Assembly: GCA_017461635.1 (NCBI GenBank)
Contig: JAFTXK010000084.1
Coordinates: 1-34,953 of the forward strand
Length of the DNA stretch: 34,953 bases
From: Clostridia bacterium
GTDB taxonomy: Bacteria; Bacillota; Clostridia; Oscillospirales; CAG-272
Reading direction: 5' to 3'
In this document: positions 1,715 through 26,382 of the stretch, one piece after another
Layout of the letters: each line of letters begins with the position of its first letter
Position numbering within the stretch: position 1 is the first letter of the stretch
The notes under the pieces: model-generated
The model's database searches: none
What the model was told of the DNA's origin: nothing
Seen by the model: only the letters and a program-made list of their open reading frames with translations
Position numbers and translations under genes: made by a program

Positions 1715-2827
1715 TTAAACAAGATAATACAATATTCCGTAAACCTGATCGTAATCATCCTCGGTCAGCAGAACCTTTCCGTTTTTATCCACTATTTCAA
1801 ATTCGCTGTTGTGGTGATGATCCCAGGCAATAATATATCCGTCGCTGTATGAAGAATAATTTGTATATGCACTCTTTACCATTTTCTTTCCCTCTGTATT
1901 TATCAGATAAAAATCACAGATACAGGGAAAATTCCAGCATTTATCCGGCGGATCATTACTGATTGTAGCATAGCCGTATTTATCGAAGCTATAGGCTTGA
2001 GCATATTGGAGAGTTATAGAGTAATTTCCGTCTTTGTCAATATAACCGTACTTTCCGTCTATACTTACACATGCAAGTCCGCAGGGGGCAAAATCCTCAG
2101 CGGTATCGAATTTAGGCTTGATCAGAAAATACCCTTCTGTATCGATGTATCCCCATTTGCTTCCAAGCTTAACCCTGGCAATTCCCTCCTCCGTAAAGGA
2201 AGACGCATCATCGAATACGGGTTCAATATAATATTTTCCCTTTTCATTTATATATCCCCATTTGCCCTCATATTTAACTGCCGCATAGCCGCAGAAAAAA
2301 GCTGAAGCTCTTTCATATACCGCTTCGGTCAGCTTTTTTTCGCTTGGTTTCTTATAACCGTATTTATCCCCCTCGCGGTATATTTCAAAATCCTTTTTCT
2401 CTTCGGCATCGGTCTCTTCCGGGGCTTTTATTTTTTCACCCTTTGTATTAATATAATAGGATTCATCGCCTTCGGTAACATAGGCACAGCCATTCTCAAA
2501 GGGCTTGGTATATCGAAATTTCGGTTCAACTATGTATTCACCGCCTATATCAATATATCCGTAAAGAATATCTCCATTGCTGTCACGCTCACCTACCTCG
2601 GCAATGCCGTATTCATTAAAGTCGCATGCACTTGCGAATTTCAGATCAATAACAAGGCTGAAGCTTTCATCAATATAGCCCCATTTATCTCCCTTTCGAA
2701 CAGCAAGGAGCCCTTGATTAAACAACGTGACATCATTAGTATCATTTTCCTCGACCTGCTCACCGCAAGACACGCACAAAAGCGTCAAAGCGATGAAAAG
2801 GGATAATAAAAACAGGTTTTTTCTCAT
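1715..2827 (-). CDS. WG-repeat lipoprotein (370 aa)
   Basis: Exported lipoprotein of unknown function. The start is set by the ribosome site: AGGAG at 2836-2840 lies 8 nt before ATG at 2825-2827, whereas an in-frame ATG at 2845 would put the Shine-Dalgarno inside the gene. The protein begins MRKNLFLLSLFIALTLL and has a lipobox at LCVSC, with lipidation probably at C21. The rest is seven or eight WG repeats of about 35 residues of the type KWGYIDESFSLVIDLKF, with two or three degenerate members near the ends. Such repeats are common in Clostridia and their ligand is unknown. It has its own strong promoter and shares terminators with its neighbours, so it is probably monocistronic. A longer paralogue lies at 19090-20610. 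Confidence 0.85.
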   Translation of the reverse strand: MRKNLFLLSLFIALTLLCVSCGEQVEENDTNDVTLFNQGLLAVRKGDKWGYIDESFSLVIDLKFASACDFNEYGIAEVGERDSNGDILYGYIDIGGEYIVEPKFRYTKPFENGCAYVTEGDESYYINTKGEKIKAPEETDAEEKKDFEIYREGDKYGYKKPSEKKLTEAVYERASAFFCGYAAVKYEGKWGYINEKGKYYIEPVFDDASSFTEEGIARVKLGSKWGYIDTEGYFLIKPKFDTAEDFAPCGLACVSIDGKYGYIDKDGNYSITLQYAQAYSFDKYGYATISNDPPDKCWNFPCICDFYLINTEGKKMVKSAYTNYSSYSDGYIIAWDHHHNSEFEIVDKNGKVLLTEDDYDQVYGILYYLV

Positions 2828-2883
2828 AAAAAACGCTCCTTTCATGTTCTATATATTGTTTTCTATCGATCTTCTTTAATTTT

Positions 2884-2970: not shown

Positions 2971-4908
2971 TTACCAAGAGGTAACTCTTGTAAATTCCCA
3001 TGCGCCGTTATTATTTATTATATAATATATCCTTGCCTGTGCTCCGTAGGCCTTCTGAGTTGTAACGCCGTCTTCTCTGAGGGCGGTATCATCATTGCTT
3101 TGTGCCGCAATATAATAGAAACCGTTGCCGAGAGAGATACAGCCGTTATCTCCCTGAAGTGCGGTATTGATACCGCAGATCCTTGCGGCATAACCCGTAT
3201 CGCCATAGGCTATGGCATCATGATTATCGATATTCCCCTTTTCGCAAACGCATTTGAGCGTTGCATGCCAGCCAATAAGCCTTTCACCTCTGTTTCCGTC
3301 ATTATCAAGGTCATTTATATCTGTATAATTTTCTGCGTACTCCATGGCGATCCTGTAATGCTCGCTATCCTGGGGAACGCTCTGACCAACCTCAACTACG
3401 TCCATATAAAGCTTCTTCGAGCCATCGATAACGGTGAGGCTGTCCTTTGGATATTCGTTGGTTTCCTTTGATCTTCCGTATGTCCAGAGCAGGTAATCGC
3501 CCGTGGTCTTATCATAGCAGATGACCTGAGTACCGTAAGTATGATATCCGCAATAAACATACATATTATATTTGATATCGATAGTAGTGTCATCATCATT
3601 TGTAACTCTCTCATAGGTCATAGGCAGGAGGTTTTCCTCTGTGATATCATCAAAATCGAATATCATTATCTGCTGATTATCATCGTCATAGCGGTAAGTA
3701 TCATAAGAGCCTTGGGTCCGCACGGCAATGATATAATCCTCATCATCATTCACTTCCACATCCTCTGTGAGAACGGTGCCCGCCTTATAGACTGTTCCGT
3801 CAGAAGCCGTTATATCCTCATCCGTCTTATAGCCTGCGGGAAGAATATAGCCGCCGCCGGGAAGCTTACCGACAGTAATACCGTCAATACCGCCGCCGCC
3901 AAAGCGTGCCACAGCTTTTCCATCGGAATTGGTAAAGGTTCTGTCAATTGAAAGCTCTGCGATATTTAAACCGTAAAGCAGAGGATCCTCTTCGCTATCC
4001 TGAATATAACCATTATCAAAAACGCTGTCGTCAAGCACTCCGATATATCTCTTATGCTTACTGAGAGAGGTTTTGCTGATTCCGAGACCGATATAGATCT
4101 TCCCCTCATGCCAATAAAGGTTTCCGATATGAGTGGAAAGGGATATCATCTCATCCGATACCTTATAAACTCCCACCTCTTCGCCCTGCTGATTTACCTT
4201 AACTATAATACCGGTGAAGGAAAAATAAATATTGCCCTCATCATCCATGGTCATGCCTTGCAGATGCTGTGCGCCATAGATCTCGCTGCCCTCATTATCT
4301 GCATATCTTGTATAGCGGTTGGGAGTTGCGACTGTGGGAACATATTTTGCGCTGAGATTATCGGTATCTTTATATACAAAGGTTTCGGGAAAAATGACCT
4401 TGCCGTCCGATATGAAATTTTCGATAAAATAATTCACCGCGTTATATGTTGCAATATCGGAAAGACCCAGGATCACAATATCCTTGCCAGAGACCGTGAC
4501 AACATAATCAAGATTGTTTTCCAGAAGAGCCGCGGCTTCATCTGCGGCGGTGCGGTCTGCCTTGCCTATGATGATCTCCGCCCCCGATGCCGCGCCCGAA
4601 TCGGTTGCAACGCTGAGCCTTGCGCCCGTTTCTGCGGCAATGGCGCTCTGAAGAATGGTCAGCAACTTTTTTACCATTTCGCTTGCGCCTTCAGAACGGA
4701 TAATAGTCCATTCTTTAATATCCAAGGTGCTTTCAACCGTTTCGGCTGCGGTTTCCGCATTTGTTTCGGCAACTGTATCCGCAACTGTATCGGCAATCGT
4801 TTCGGTTAAGGTATCTGTGTCCTTCACTGTGTCTTTACCCTCTCCGCAAGAGCAAAGAATAAGCAAAAGGGAAAGTAAAAGGCAAAGGATAAGTAATGCT
4901 TTTTTCAT
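2971..4908 (-). CDS. Lipoprotein with N-terminal GH20b-like domain and C-terminal propeller-like domain (645 aa)
   Basis: Secreted lipoprotein, function unknown. The start is the ATG at 4906-4908, preceded by GAGGAG at a good distance; the longer reading frame to 4992 lacks such a site. The signal MKKALLILCLLLSLLLILCSC has its lipidation cysteine at C21. A Thr/Asp/Glu-rich linker follows. Residues of about 65-165 (TGARLSVATD, AEIIIGKADR) resemble the small alpha/beta domain found before catalytic domains in GH20/GH67-type proteins; that is a by-eye likeness only. From about residue 188 to the end is a domain with repeated beta-strand units (DDEGNIYFS, EGKIYIGLG) and a DLDNDG calcium-type loop. 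It is clearly homologous to the end of the neighbouring 1999-residue protein. I read it as a beta-propeller. No catalytic residues are recognised. Confidence 0.75.
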   Translation of the reverse strand: MKKALLILCLLLSLLLILCSCGEGKDTVKDTDTLTETIADTVADTVAETNAETAAETVESTLDIKEWTIIRSEGASEMVKKLLTILQSAIAAETGARLSVATDSGAASGAEIIIGKADRTAADEAAALLENNLDYVVTVSGKDIVILGLSDIATYNAVNYFIENFISDGKVIFPETFVYKDTDNLSAKYVPTVATPNRYTRYADNEGSEIYGAQHLQGMTMDDEGNIYFSFTGIIVKVNQQGEEVGVYKVSDEMISLSTHIGNLYWHEGKIYIGLGISKTSLSKHKRYIGVLDDSVFDNGYIQDSEEDPLLYGLNIAELSIDRTFTNSDGKAVARFGGGGIDGITVGKLPGGGYILPAGYKTDEDITASDGTVYKAGTVLTEDVEVNDDEDYIIAVRTQGSYDTYRYDDDNQQIMIFDFDDITEENLLPMTYERVTNDDDTTIDIKYNMYVYCGYHTYGTQVICYDKTTGDYLLWTYGRSKETNEYPKDSLTVIDGSKKLYMDVVEVGQSVPQDSEHYRIAMEYAENYTDINDLDNDGNRGERLIGWHATLKCVCEKGNIDNHDAIAYGDTGYAARICGINTALQGDNGCISLGNGFYYIAAQSNDDTALREDGVTTQKAYGAQARIYYIINNNGAWEFTRVTSW

Positions 4909-4956
4909 TTTGTGTTCTCCTCGAATAATAATTTGCAATAGTAACATTACTGTCAC

Positions 4957-5031
4957 AAACAATCCCTCAGTCACGGCGAATGAAAAAATCACTCTAATTT
5001 TAGTTATTTCGCCGTGACTGAGGGATTGTTT
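4957..5031. repeat. MITE-like palindromic element (24-bp perfect inverted repeat)
   Basis: Arms 4957-4980 and 5008-5031 are exact reverse complements, with a 27-nt AT-rich loop. The arm core CCCTCAGTCACGGCGAA resembles small intergenic repeats seen in many gut Clostridia (from memory, not searched). It is inserted about 50 nt upstream of the start of the 645-residue lipoprotein gene and could end or modulate transcription entering from the right. Confidence 0.75.
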
Positions 5032-5054
5032 CCTGTGGTGAGTTACTTCTTCGC

Positions 5055-5128
5055 TAAATTATTGGCAACCTCTAAAAACTCAAAATAAATAAATAAATAA
5101 ACAATAATTTAGAGTTTTTAGAGATGCC
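5055..5128. repeat. Dispersed repeat, copy A, with interleaved inverted repeats
   Basis: Four segments alternate. TAAATTATT (5055-5063) is complementary to 5103-5111, and CTCTAAAAACTC (5070-5081) is complementary to 5112-5123. GGCA at 5064 also pairs with TGCC at 5125-5128. The two stems interlock and cannot form together except as a pseudoknot. The block 5066-5086 is identical to 34761-34781, and AAACAATAATTTAG at 5099-5112 recurs at 34791-34804. An AAAT microsatellite run (about 5082-5100) forms the spacer. Confidence 0.75.
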
Positions 5129-5168
5129 CTATTGCTAACATGTCTTAAAATATTATCATATATTCCGC

Positions 5169-5198
5169 CAAAGGGCTGTCGGAAAAGACAGCCCTTTG
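5169..5198 (-). terminator. Rho-independent terminator of the 1999-residue LRR gene
   Basis: A perfect 12-bp stem (CAAAGGGCTGTC and complement) with a 6-nt loop lies 15 nt after the stop of the 5213-11212 gene. The T-run after the stem is short on the minus strand. Together with the repeats to the left, it suggests that the two propeller-domain genes are not simply one transcript. Confidence 0.7.
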
Positions 5199-5212
5199 AA
5201 GAGATATAAAAC

Positions 5213-8200
5213 TCAGGAATCTGATACTCTTACGAAAGACCAAGAACCGTGATAGCGGCTGATTCTATAAAGTCTCGCCTGTCCGCCGTAAGCGGTCTGC
5301 TCTGTTGTACCGTCTGTTTTGTACATTGTGGTATTACTCTGAGCCGCAACATAGAAATAGTCATTTCCAAGGCTGATACAGCCATTGTCACCAGCAAGAC
5401 CGGGTCTTGCGCCGCAGTATTTGACAGCATGGCCGGTATCACCATAGACAACTTCCTCGTGGTTATCGAGATGAAGCTTACCGCATACGCACTTAAGCGT
5501 CATATGCCAGCCAAGCAGCTGCTCTGATGTATCACCGTCGTTATCCAGGTCCTTTTCATCGGTATAGTAGGTTGCCCATTCGCTGGCAGTATCATAATAC
5601 TCGCCGGTCTCGGGAACGCTCTGACCAACCTCAACTACGTCCATATAAAGCTTCTTTGAGCCGTCAATAACATTAAAGTTATCATCCGGGAACTCATTGC
5701 AGCTGTCGGCTCTGTCATAAGGCCACAACTGTATATCGCCTGTGCCCTTATCATAGCAGATAACCTGACAGCCGTATTCATGATAACCGACATAAACGAA
5801 CATATTGTACTTAATGCTGATGATATCTGCGTCATATTCGGAAGCAACTCTATCATAAGTCATGGGAGTGAGATTTTCGCCGTCAACGATATCGTCAAAA
5901 TCAAATGCCATTATAATTTGATTATCGTCGTCATAGCGGTATTCATCATAAGAACCGATAGTTCTTACACCGAAGAGATAGTATTCTTCATCTGTGACTT
6001 CAAGATCCTCTGTAAGTTCTGTTCCTGCGGTATATACATTGCCGTCCGAGCCTGTTACATCCTCCTTCAGAGTATAGCCTGCGGGAAGGATATAACCCTT
6101 GCCAGGAAGCTGACCGACTGTGATACCGTCGATACCGCCGCCGCCAAATTTGGCATGAGCCACTCCATCGGCAGAAGTAAAGGTTTTGTTATAAGAAATA
6201 TCTTCAATGCAAACAGCCTTCATCAAAGGAGCAGAATCGCTGTCCTGAACATACCCGCCGTAATCCTCAAATACACTTTCATCAAGAACGCCGATATATC
6301 TCTTACCGCCGGATACCTCTGTTTTACTGATTCCGAGACCGATATAGATCTTGCCCTCATGCCAGTATATATTACCGATATGCATGGAAAGCTTTGATAT
6401 CCATTCGGAAGCCGACTTATAAACGCCTACCTCTTCGCCTGCCTGATTGACCTTAACGATCATATTTGTAAGCGAGAAGTAAATATTTCCTTCATCGTCC
6501 ATAGTCATACCCTGGAGATGCTGAGCACCGTATTTCTGAGAAGCATCGGGGGTTTGATATCTGGGATAACGGTTGGGAGTGGTTACTGTAGCGGCATAAT
6601 CGATAGATTCGCTGTATTCGGGAACTTCAGTGCCCTGATCGGCAATCGTAACCGCCAATGTCTCGCCGAGAATATAGGTATCGGCAGGAATAAGTGCTTC
6701 TGCCGCCGCGATGATCTCATCTGTAATAGCAACACCCTTCTCGCTGCGGACAAAGGGGATATAGGTCTCGCTATCCGAATACTCACGAACGAGAGTAACC
6801 GTAACACCCTCATAGCCATTGAGTGCTGTTTCCCTGATGGAGGTGTCCGCACCCTGAAGCAGAGTATTCCATACAGCCTTTTCATCAATATTTGCACTAA
6901 GAATGCCTATCTTATCGGAATTCAGACACATATCAAGGGTCACATCATAGAGATTAAAGAAGATCTGACCGTCTTTTGTGGCATAATTTGCATAGAGAAC
7001 ATAGTCATAACCGTCAGCATCGGTATATACCACATATGCGCATGAATAGATATCTCTCTTGTGATTTGCACTGTATTTTACAACCGAACCTGCAAAGTCA
7101 ACATGCTCGCCCTTAACTGTGGTTTTAAGAACCTTTCCGTATTTTTCGCCTTCATCCGTGATCTGATATACCGGAATCTTTTTGATGGATGTTGCCTCAG
7201 AGACATAATTACCGTTTCTGAGCTTGATATCAACTCCGCCCCATACATCATATTCGGATGCGGAGGTAAGCACAACGCCATATTCCTTAAGGGTATATCC
7301 AAGTGCTTCAATATTATCATTCTTCTTTTCGTCAAAGGAGAAGATAGCGCGCAGACCGTTATAGGAATTATAACGGATCTCAAAGCCCATTGCCGAGATA
7401 GAGCCGTTTATATTCTTTACGGTATATACAAGTGAACTGAGCGCAGAGGAAACCGCATCGCTCGTAACATGCAGAACAAGACCGTCATTTGCGGGGAATG
7501 TTTCAGCAGTTGCCGAAGAAAGATCGAAATTCGGCTTTTCGATCACGATCTTTGTCAGCTTATCGCAGCCGTAAAATGCATTTGTACCGATTCCGCCGAA
7601 TCCCTCGGTGATAACGATATCGGTAAGATTCTTACAGCCATAGAACATATTGTTCGCAATAATTATTGCCGCATTATCAGATGATTGTCTTGTAAGCTCT
7701 GAGGGCATGATAACCTTTTTGATAGATTCACATCCTGAGAACATTGAGGGCATATTATAGTCCTGCTTCTTCCAGAAGGAAAGGTCAATAACTCCGTCAT
7801 AACTGTCATCCGAGCCATAGCTTACGGTAGTAAGCGAGGGACAATTCTGGAAAAGACCGTTAGTACCGCTACTGCTTATGGAAATTCTGTAAAGAGCTCT
7901 GGAGAAATGAATATGCTTAAGATTGGGAAGATTTGAGAAAGCGCAGTCCTGATGCTGAGCATATATCTGTGTGCCGCCAAAATTAACAACATAGATAGAT
8001 TCGATAACATCGGTCCAAGTCGTCTTCCAATCCTGCCAAACAGTTGTATATTTATTCATGCTAAAATTAGAGCTGTTGCTTGCTGTCTCACCGGCAGATG
8101 GGGTAATGGTAAGCTTACCTTCTGTCTCATCTAAGAACCAACGGAACTGTACAGCACCAGTATTCGAATTTATAGCTGCGTCCTCACGGAGAAGCGAATT

Positions 8201-22926: not shown

Positions 22927-25900
22927 TTATTCTGCTGCCGGCAAACCGGAATTTTCATGAATATTGGTAGCAGTTTCGGGAAGGTTAACTGTTGTGATAA
23001 GCGATGCACCGTTAAATGCCTGCTCAAGCACATCTGTGATTGCAGTGTTGGAGAAATCTGCAACGCCTTGGACAAAAGCTGTATCGCCGCAAGCAACGCT
23101 TACAAGTGCACTTGCATTCTGGAATGCCTGCTTTCCGAGAACTGTTACATTTTCGGGAAGACGGATCTGCTTAACGCTTTCATTTCCATTAACCATATAA
23201 GCGGTTGTGAGTTCTTCGATGCAGCTTACATCGATAAGACCTGCAACGGGAGTTGCGCCTATCTCGTAAACTGTATCAACACCGCAGGACTGGAATACCG
23301 CCTTTGCAGCCTTTGTAAGGCTCTTAGGAAGTACAACCGTCTTAAGCGAACGCATCTGATTGAAGAGCTCATCACCAAGCTCTGTGATGCCTTCCTTAAT
23401 AATAACGGTCTTTATCTTACCCTCAACATCGGAATTGAGAACGGGATTGGGCACTGCACTTGAAACAGTTTCCCAAGAAGCTTTGTCATATTTAGTAGCG
23501 AAGCCGGCAGAAAGCTGATTAACAGTTCGAGGACCTCCCCATCTTTCACTTTTGGGAATAGCGCCTGTACCTGTATAAACTGCCACATACTCATCATTAT
23601 ACTCATAAAGAGTAACCTTAACATCAGAAGCTGTAAAGGTAAGAACAGAATCAACATCTGTCTGAGTAACTACGGGAACATTGCTGAATGTGAATGTATC
23701 GCCGATCGCATTGCCTTCAAGGTCGGTCTGACCTTCAACAATTGCATAGTCTGTGCCTGCGGTAAGTGTTACAACACCTGCGCTGAGCGCATCGAGAGCA
23801 ATATTTCCGCTCTCCTCTGTGAGAACGCCATCCATATACATTCCGAGAGTAATATCATAAAGGCTAGCCTCTTCGGTATCAGTATAGTAGAATTCGATAC
23901 CGCCTTTAGCATTCTTAACAACGGCATAACCGCGCATCACGATATCAGTCTTGTAGCTTGCCTCGGGAAGCTTGACAAGAGAAATAGCAAAGTCTGTTTT
24001 ATCATCACTGCTGGTCTTAAGGATCTTATTAACGATAATGCCGTTTTTGTAAACCGCACTCTTAACGATCTTTTCGCCTGCAGTTACATAATCAGTACCG
24101 CTTACGTTGAGATCCATGCCGGATGCTGCGCTGTTTGCAGCGGTTGCTACGATAGCACCGTACTCAACAACAGTATATCCTTCAGCCTCAAAAGCATCGA
24201 TATCAGCCTGAGCTACGGAGAATACGCCGCGGAGACCGTTATAATTATTGACACGAACCGAATAGCCGTCAAAAGCTACAGGGCTCTTGGGATAATACTT
24301 AAATGTGATATTCTGGCAGATATTTTTATTTTCAGCATATCCGCCCGCAAGATACATAGTTACAAAGTCATCGATTGCTGTTCCTTCATAGATCTTGAAT
24401 GTAAGACCCTTACACTTCTGAGCGATCTTTTGAACACCGAATGACTCAAGATTTTCGCCCAGAAGGATCGTAGGTGTGCAATTTTGGAAGGAATCGTCAA
24501 TTGTATAACCACCGAATTTAGTAATATTTGTGAAATCGATAATGCCTTCAACTGCTTCATTACCTGCGATAACTACCGTATCAAGAGCATGATTATATGA
24601 AAAAGAACCTGAGCCGCTTATATCAGTAAGAGTTGCGGGGATCGTCATCTTTTTGCAATTGGTCAATTGAGACAGCATATAATTCTTTACCGTGGTAATT
24701 GGAGCTTCAATGATAACTTCCTCAACGTCCTTCTGGATTCCATGCTCGATCCAAGGCAGCTGAGCAACAACCTTGTCATTTTCAGTAGCTTTACCATTAT
24801 AAGAGATTGCATAGTCCATTTCAAGGACTGTTGCTGTACCGGAAATAGTCAGAACCTTTGTATTGGGATTATATGAATATGTAAGGTCGTTCTTTTCAGC
24901 GAACTTGCCTGTGATAATAACGGTCTGAACGTCAACCGTAATATTATTTGCAGTTGCCCATTCTTCTGCATAGGATTCTTCATCAACTGTAAGCACAACA
25001 TCGGGGCAAGCTGCAAATGCGCCGTCCTCAATAGCTGTGATATTAGAACCGATAACAACGGATTCAAGATTTGTGCAGCCTGCAAATGTACTTGCCTGTA
25101 TCGTTGTCAGAGCCTCACTCTCGGGGAGAATAACCTTCGTTATCTTACCGCAGTTCTTGAACATATTAGCAAGCCATATTGAAGCAGAGTCATCGGTATT
25201 GATATTTGCTCCGGAAAGATCCGCAACACCGTCAGCGAGCTCGCCGCCGAAGGTTACAGACTTAAGAGCTGTGCATCCTTCAAACCAACCAATGCTGTCT
25301 GCCGATGTATTCTGCATACGCTGATCTGCGGCAAAGGTTACTGTTTCCAGATTTGTCATTCCCGCAAAGAGAGGACTGATTCCGCCTGAAGAGGAACTAC
25401 TGAATGAAAGCTTTTGGAAATATGCAACTGTAGCAGTCTTTACCTTGGAGCCCCAAACAGACTTAAACAACTGCCAGTTAGCATCATTGGTGTCAAACTG
25501 AATCCAGCCGGCAGCACCTTCTGCCTGCTTGATTTCAAGCGCACCGGTTTCAACATTCAGCGACCATGCGGCATGACCGTCGGATTCCTGACCTGTGGGA
25601 CTTGCAATTTCGGTGAGATCATAATATTCAATATTTACGTTTGCGCCCTGAACATAATTGCCGGATGTAACCTCCTGCAGGCTCTTTACATATGTTTCGC
25701 ACTCAGAGCCCTCGACAACTTTGAAGGTTACTTTCGTATCGGAAGCAAAATTCTTTGTACTTATTATGGGCGAGGATGAAAAATAAGGCATAAGAACTGT
25801 TATAGTCTTGCCCTTTGCGCAGCTCTCGAGACCCTGGCTGGTGCTTCCCTTCAGATTGCGCAGGTCGATAGTATTCTCGGGTGTTCCCTCGGGACCGAAG

Positions 25901-26382
25901 GTTGTGAGCTCCCACATATTAGCGAATGCCATTGAAAGCTTGGTCTTTAATGTGATGGCATTATCGGGGAGGATGAATGTATGCACATTATAAAGCTGAT
26001 TGAATGCACAAGGCTGAACAATATTAGTGATAGGAGCCTCGATCACTACCTTTGTTACAGCATCTTTATAAGCATACCACGGAACTGTATCAGCCCCCAT
26101 TTTATCCCAAGCAGCGCCGGAATTGAAAGTAAGGGTAGTTTCGGTACCTGTGATAGTAAGGACTGTTTCTGTTTTTTCACCCTCGGTGACCTGATCGACA
26201 GTCCATTTAAGGTCTGTTCCCTCAGTGCCTTCAAAGGCTGTTTCGCCATCCTCGCCATACATTTGAACCCAACCGGATGCGGGATATGTAAGCTCGGAAG
26301 CGGCAGCTCCAAAAGCGAACACAACCGTAAGAACGGTGATTACAGCAAGGAAAATCAAAGATTTTCTTAACGTAAGCTTCAT
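22927..26382 (-). CDS. Secreted BspA-type LRR protein (1151 aa)
   Basis: Cell-surface or secreted protein with the signal peptide MKLTLRKSLIFLAVITVLTVVFAFGAAAS. Several repeats of a beta-strand unit plus BspA-type LRRs follow: PWYAYKDAVTKVVIEAPIT near residue 90, PWIEHGIQKDVEEVIIEAPITT near 550, and LRR motifs such as TFAGCTNLESVVIGSNITAI. Residues of about 700-860 carry the same domain (VNNYNGLRGVF, VVEYGAIV) found in the 1999-residue protein; GLR...EYG domains are frequent in Clostridia surface proteins. The last 200 residues return to LRRs and stop abruptly at NSGLPAAE, with no anchor and no propeller domain, unlike its larger relative. GGAAGG lies about 10 nt before the ATG. The function is unknown. 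Confidence 0.87.
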   Translation of the reverse strand: MKLTLRKSLIFLAVITVLTVVFAFGAAASELTYPASGWVQMYGEDGETAFEGTEGTDLKWTVDQVTEGEKTETVLTITGTETTLTFNSGAAWDKMGADTVPWYAYKDAVTKVVIEAPITNIVQPCAFNQLYNVHTFILPDNAITLKTKLSMAFANMWELTTFGPEGTPENTIDLRNLKGSTSQGLESCAKGKTITVLMPYFSSSPIISTKNFASDTKVTFKVVEGSECETYVKSLQEVTSGNYVQGANVNIEYYDLTEIASPTGQESDGHAAWSLNVETGALEIKQAEGAAGWIQFDTNDANWQLFKSVWGSKVKTATVAYFQKLSFSSSSSGGISPLFAGMTNLETVTFAADQRMQNTSADSIGWFEGCTALKSVTFGGELADGVADLSGANINTDDSASIWLANMFKNCGKITKVILPESEALTTIQASTFAGCTNLESVVIGSNITAIEDGAFAACPDVVLTVDEESYAEEWATANNITVDVQTVIITGKFAEKNDLTYSYNPNTKVLTISGTATVLEMDYAISYNGKATENDKVVAQLPWIEHGIQKDVEEVIIEAPITTVKNYMLSQLTNCKKMTIPATLTDISGSGSFSYNHALDTVVIAGNEAVEGIIDFTNITKFGGYTIDDSFQNCTPTILLGENLESFGVQKIAQKCKGLTFKIYEGTAIDDFVTMYLAGGYAENKNICQNITFKYYPKSPVAFDGYSVRVNNYNGLRGVFSVAQADIDAFEAEGYTVVEYGAIVATAANSAASGMDLNVSGTDYVTAGEKIVKSAVYKNGIIVNKILKTSSDDKTDFAISLVKLPEASYKTDIVMRGYAVVKNAKGGIEFYYTDTEEASLYDITLGMYMDGVLTEESGNIALDALSAGVVTLTAGTDYAIVEGQTDLEGNAIGDTFTFSNVPVVTQTDVDSVLTFTASDVKVTLYEYNDEYVAVYTGTGAIPKSERWGGPRTVNQLSAGFATKYDKASWETVSSAVPNPVLNSDVEGKIKTVIIKEGITELGDELFNQMRSLKTVVLPKSLTKAAKAVFQSCGVDTVYEIGATPVAGLIDVSCIEELTTAYMVNGNESVKQIRLPENVTVLGKQAFQNASALVSVACGDTAFVQGVADFSNTAITDVLEQAFNGASLITTVNLPETATNIHENSGLPAAE

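Follow-up and report, generated by a model that had tools for sequence, protein, structure and literature searches.

The window analysed here is a stretch of 34,953 nt from a Clostridia bacterium (CAG-272, Oscillospirales; assembly GCA_017461635.1, contig JAFTXK010000084.1). It contains two neighbouring genes, both on the reverse strand, that encode a lipoprotein and a giant secreted LRR protein. Their coordinates, and those of the features within them, are given in Table 1. The length of 645 aa given for the lipoprotein in a preliminary description of this DNA agrees with the reading from the ATG at 4908, which is preceded by an AGGAGA ribosome site. An alternative GTG start would yield a protein of 673 aa; this reading is unlikely, given the AGGAGA at the ATG and the location of the GTG near intergenic inverted repeats. 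The spacer between the two genes contains a likely terminator hairpin and two long inverted repeats (CTCTAAAAACTC... and CAATCCCTCAGTCACGGCGAA...) that are reminiscent of small mobile elements; transcription of the two genes may be separate. The gene downstream of the lipoprotein gene (window 1715-2845, reverse strand) encodes another lipoprotein, in which eight WG repeats were recognised (PF14903, E 5.9e-53).

Table 1. Features of the two neighbouring genes (window coordinates)
Feature	Position	Strand	Remarks
Lipoprotein gene, 645 aa	2971..4908	-	Signal peptide with LCSC lipobox (Cys21); AGGAGA before ATG
Propeller domain, copy 1 (lipoprotein)	2974..4353	-	BLASTP alignment; AlphaFold2 pLDDT 91.6
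CxC(x7)H(x14)C insert, copy 1	3175..3252	-	Secreted clade only
DLDNDG calcium-type loop, copy 1	3295..3312	-	DxDxDG in 12 of 16 secreted copies; calcium binding putative
GH20b/GH67N-like accessory domain of lipoprotein	4354..4728	-	AlphaFold2 pLDDT 95.2; structural Z 13.4
Intergenic region	4909..5212	-	Separates lipoprotein and LRR genes; contains hairpins and two long inverted repeats
Secreted LRR protein gene, 1999 aa	5213..11212	-	Signal peptide, BspA-type LRR_5
Propeller domain, copy 2 (LRR protein)	5216..6607	-	BLASTP; 65% identical to copy 1
Middle domain of LRR protein	6608..7420	-	Repeated 18 times in genome; no Pfam family

The preliminary description had proposed that the C-terminal regions of the two proteins align along their length. 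This was borne out by BLASTP, in which residues 186-643 of the lipoprotein, counted from the ATG at 4908 (214-671 in GTG numbering), matched residues 1536-1997 of the LRR protein with 65% identity (299 identical positions in 463 columns, 6 gaps, 608 bits, E 0.0). The motifs that had been listed as common to the two, GAQHLQGMTMDDEGNIYFS, KLYMDVVEVGQSVP, DLDNDG and KCVC, are each found in both copies. The DxDxDG loop is variable among the secreted copies. It had also been suggested that the presence of one domain in two adjacent proteins hints at a common ligand or partner; the domain is indeed present in both, but it is a module of many proteins, so that little can be concluded about a shared ligand from the adjacency of these two genes alone.

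The shared domain had been thought to lack a named family, and the database searches agree. No model for it was found in Pfam, where the lipoprotein had no match at all and the LRR protein, weak matches aside, matched LRR_5 alone, or in NCBIfam, where matches were limited to the signal-peptide region and repeats. PHROGs gave no convincing match, a search of PDB sequences with a single domain sequence gave nothing credible, and no close relatives were found in phages at E 1e-3. The sole PDB match of the family profile (P22, 8h2i; E 3.8e-5 over 37 residues) was judged to be a repeat artefact, and a Pfam match to Diphtheria_C (E 0.12) was dropped as falling under its own cut-off. Matches to NHL and SBBP models in single members (E 0.02-0.03) were also below the cut-offs, and are in keeping with a propeller. 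A literature search found no account of the domain. No profile placed the region in a well-described family, and no difference in fold between the two proteins was found.

An AlphaFold2 model of the domain, built from an alignment of 23 sequences, was predicted with confidence (pLDDT 91.6, pTM 0.92) and supports the earlier proposal of a beta-propeller. The order of the strands assigned by DSSP and the repeated motifs HLQGMTMD, HIGNLYW, GIDGITVG, YGTQVICYD and DNGCISLG fit five blades by our count, as do the best structural neighbours. The highest Z-scores were obtained with glutaminyl cyclases (3mbr, 15.6 over 205 residues, rmsd 2.9; 2iwa and 3nol, 14.9), followed by a GH32 invertase (14.3) and Escherichia coli YjiK (14.0); numerous GH43 and NHL chains scored about 13. 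Foldseek E values were modest (best 2.8e-5) and TM-scores were below 0.5, which indicates that the domain has no close structural relative in the PDB copy searched; the Cu/Zn-SOD, NHL and Cdc20 chains among the Foldseek hits (TM < 0.5) were set aside as generic propeller matches. The model provides good support for assigning the shared C-terminal domain to the five-bladed beta-propellers.

Comparison with known propeller families revealed likeness in fold accompanied by differences. The plant/bacterial-type glutaminyl cyclases (Pfam Glu_cyclase_2), which are five-bladed, gave the best Z-scores, but the fold matches show only 11-13% identity and the secreted proteins described below carry an extra insert of approximately 60 residues. 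None of the 23 members matched PF05096 (glutaminyl cyclase) at E <= 1, and in a by-eye alignment a hydrophobic residue appears to occupy the position of the catalytic Glu of the second blade. When glutaminyl cyclase sequences were sought for a profile comparison, 148 Clostridia genomes yielded a single match, below the cut-off. The five-bladed glycosidases of GH43 and GH32 resemble the domain in fold (Z about 13-14), and a carbohydrate setting is also suggested for the domain; they appear to differ in that the domain has just one acidic invariant, D157, at its inner-strand starts. Membership of GH43 (PF04616) was rejected, as the hhalign probability against sequences from GH43 matches was at most 8.8% and E was 0.15 for the whole family. 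NHL/SMP-30/Drp35-type propellers are typically six-bladed. Their likeness to the domain consists of the weak NHL/SBBP matches in single members and the Foldseek matches; the NHL repeat (PF01436) was matched by 2 of 23 members, with a best E of 0.025, under the curated cut-off. Lac161_ORF10, a five-bladed, DUF377/GH130-like protein without a recognised GH domain, proved to be a beta-galactosidase (PMC5342196). It is a member of PF04041, a Pfam family to which no match was found among the propeller members.

At least six copies of the propeller are encoded in the organism's own genome: besides the window pair, there are four in frames of 1499-1847 aa on other contigs. Seven were found in a metagenome-assembled genome from sheep rectum that represents a second species of this genus. 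When genomes were searched with the family profile, which also detects single-domain proteins of approximately 350 aa, 19 of the 97 close ones had matches, as did 12 of the 391 sampled from the class and 49 of the 394 sampled from the order. The matches in the order include a shorter subgroup of approximately 280 aa with the same motifs. In a sample of 398 genomes from the phylum, only the organism's own genome and one other of the same order were matched, so that within the genomes searched the family appears to be confined to Clostridia. Profile-profile comparison linked the secreted copies to the single-domain proteins (E 3e-55 over 326 columns) and to the short subgroup (E 4e-29 over 250 columns), and membership of all three in one family is well supported by these sequence comparisons. 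Most of the single-domain proteins have no signal peptide at their start, as read by eye; one (L049) has a lipoprotein signal. The three subgroups would represent a new propeller family of five-bladed type. Roughly one of every eight genomes sampled from the order has it, and the libraries searched contain no entry for it.

The 16 secreted copies, almost all of them from exported contexts, group in a single clade (support 0.857; 0.963 for an inner group of 14). Within it the two lipoproteins are sisters (0.948), and the LRR copy from the window groups with one in a second-species LRR protein (0.72). The constant feature found only in this clade is the CxC...H...C insert: C368, C370 and C393 are present in 16 of 16 copies and H378 in 15, and the 48 proteins of about 350 aa have gaps at all three Cys positions of the alignment. 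Such an insert could bind zinc or form disulfides. Other residues are shared by the whole family. H30, Q32, T47, K52, H75, G77, Y87, D157, Q276, Y292 and G404 are near-invariant, each being conserved at 85% or more in every subgroup (72 sequences), and by DSSP on the AlphaFold2 model H30/Q32, H75, D157, Q276 and G404 lie at or just before the inner-strand starts of blades 1 to 5. Of the acidic residues at these starts, D157 alone is conserved throughout the three subgroups; conservation of D223 was seen in A1. In propellers the ligand site usually lies on the face onto which the inner-strand starts open, and from the topology of the model the invariant residues would be expected to cluster at the propeller centre.

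The scaffolds to which the propeller is attached were also analysed. The N-terminal domain of the lipoprotein has no credible match in Pfam. It had been described as GH20b-like, and structural comparison agrees, the best matches being the accessory domains of GH115 (Z 13.4 over 123 residues, rmsd 2.8) and GH67 (Z 13.2) enzymes, with GH20 and GH84 at about 10 and GH138 also matched. The fold is thus that of the GH20b/GH67N-like domains, but in the window lipoprotein it is followed by the propeller instead of a catalytic TIM-barrel enzyme. The module is present in 20 copies in the organism's own genome, an unusually large set of such lipoproteins, and in 30 in the second species. Among 22 sampled C-terminal parts of sister lipoproteins, the N-terminal domain is followed by GH26 in 17, and by AXE1, a beta-helix or a metallo-beta-lactamase in single members. 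The propeller occupies the GH26-type slot both in the window lipoprotein and in its counterpart.

The LRR modules reported for the N-terminal half of the giant protein are of the BspA type (LRR_5, PF13306; E 1.5e-46, 157.9 bits against a cut-off of 27.7, in six stretches). This match is what links the protein to the BspA-type LRR surface proteins; its middle domain and C-terminal propeller lie outside that family as described, as far as the literature search found. The middle domain is present in 18 copies in the organism's own genome and 40 in the second species, and among 39 genomes was found in its own genus only. A second protein in the window (22927-26382, reverse strand) contains it (match at 23734-24276) and ends in further LRR-like sequence without a propeller. 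Several of the LRR-scaffold frames that were read end in the propeller and many in nothing or in further LRRs. A few have a C-terminal part that is GDSL-like (recognised by its motif, the matching PDB entry being an uncharacterised protein) or GDPD-like, or a part that looks by eye like a phosphoesterase and matched no PDB chain. One propeller protein on this scaffold has an N-terminal GDSL domain. The GH20b module and the LRR middle domain, with about 20 and 18 copies, mark a large cell-surface repertoire that annotation has missed.

The best explanation for these data, to which a probability of roughly one half is assigned, is that the propellers form a Clostridia family, one lineage of which has been exported and fused to surface scaffolds and functions in glycan or glycoconjugate processing. 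The form that looks ancestral would be the single-domain one, which measures about 280-350 aa and for the most part lacks a signal peptide. One lineage would have been exported, would have gained the CxC-His-Cys insert, and would have been fused to at least two surface scaffolds, the GH20b-domain lipoprotein and the BspA-type LRR proteins. The lipid anchor or the LRRs would position the propeller, the centre of which may process carbohydrate or glycoconjugate by means of H30, Q32, H75, D157 and Q276, residues predicted to open the inner strands of four of the five blades. A processing module is favoured because of the GH26 position that the propeller occupies and its conserved polar residues, and a catalytic role appears more likely than a merely adhesive one. 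Several observations point the other way. No catalytic residues are assignable, D157 being the only acidic residue at an inner-strand start that is retained throughout, unlike the situation in GH43 and GH32. Many LRR scaffolds have no recognisable extra domain, and one sister protein, the 1736-aa LRR-scaffold protein L249:2512-7719, ends by eye in what looks like a different, LVIVD-like propeller repeat region. A more specific form of the processing proposal, put forward tentatively and at somewhat less than even odds, is that the propeller founds a new family of carbohydrate-active enzymes, be they glycosidases, lyases or esterases, in which the centre of the five-bladed fold relies on His, Gln and Asp and possibly on a metal; surface-exposed and apparently cytosolic versions would exist in gut Clostridia. 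As the secreted form takes the position that GH26 has in sister lipoproteins, plant or mucin glycans would be reasonable substrates on which to assay it.

The lipoproteins BtuG and XusB capture cargo, and their propellers are among the Foldseek matches. By analogy, the propeller might be a non-catalytic module that binds glycans or small ligands and captures substrate for neighbouring enzymes. The fusion of one copy to CBM_X2 and laminin-G domains is consistent with this, as are the cases (L045, L039) in which an N-domain-GH26 lipoprotein gene shares a contig with an LRR-propeller gene and lies no more than a few kilobases from it. On balance such a role is a less likely, though serious, alternative: the same polar residues are retained in single-domain proteins without a signal peptide, where surface capture is not needed, and in the lipoprotein the propeller replaces a catalytic domain rather than joining one. 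Considerably more doubtful is a role, together with the LRRs, as a platform for protein-protein interaction or adhesion with no glycan-related function. BspA-type LRRs are known for adhesion, propellers commonly serve as such platforms and a recognisable enzyme is missing from many of the LRR scaffolds, but the strict polar conservation at the inner-strand starts, in secreted and single-domain proteins alike, is more typical of a site than of a surface for interaction.

Glycan-related genes are common among the neighbours of the single-domain propeller genes and include GH106, GH27, GH35, GH51, GH78 and AXE1 genes. A glycan role was not deduced from this, as GH78 is not clearly enriched (5 near copies compared with about 2.5 expected, at about 6 per genome) and the two cases of GH35 represent one genus. 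In three related genomes (L105, L106 and L165) the single-domain gene lies in a fixed block with mannose-6-phosphate-isomerase-like and EamA-like transporter genes, and an FGGY kinase gene was also seen in one of them. In L101 and L110 the single-domain gene adjoins a gene resembling those for iron-containing alcohol dehydrogenases (PF13685 in L101; by eye in L110), which possibly encodes a glycerol-1-phosphate dehydrogenase.
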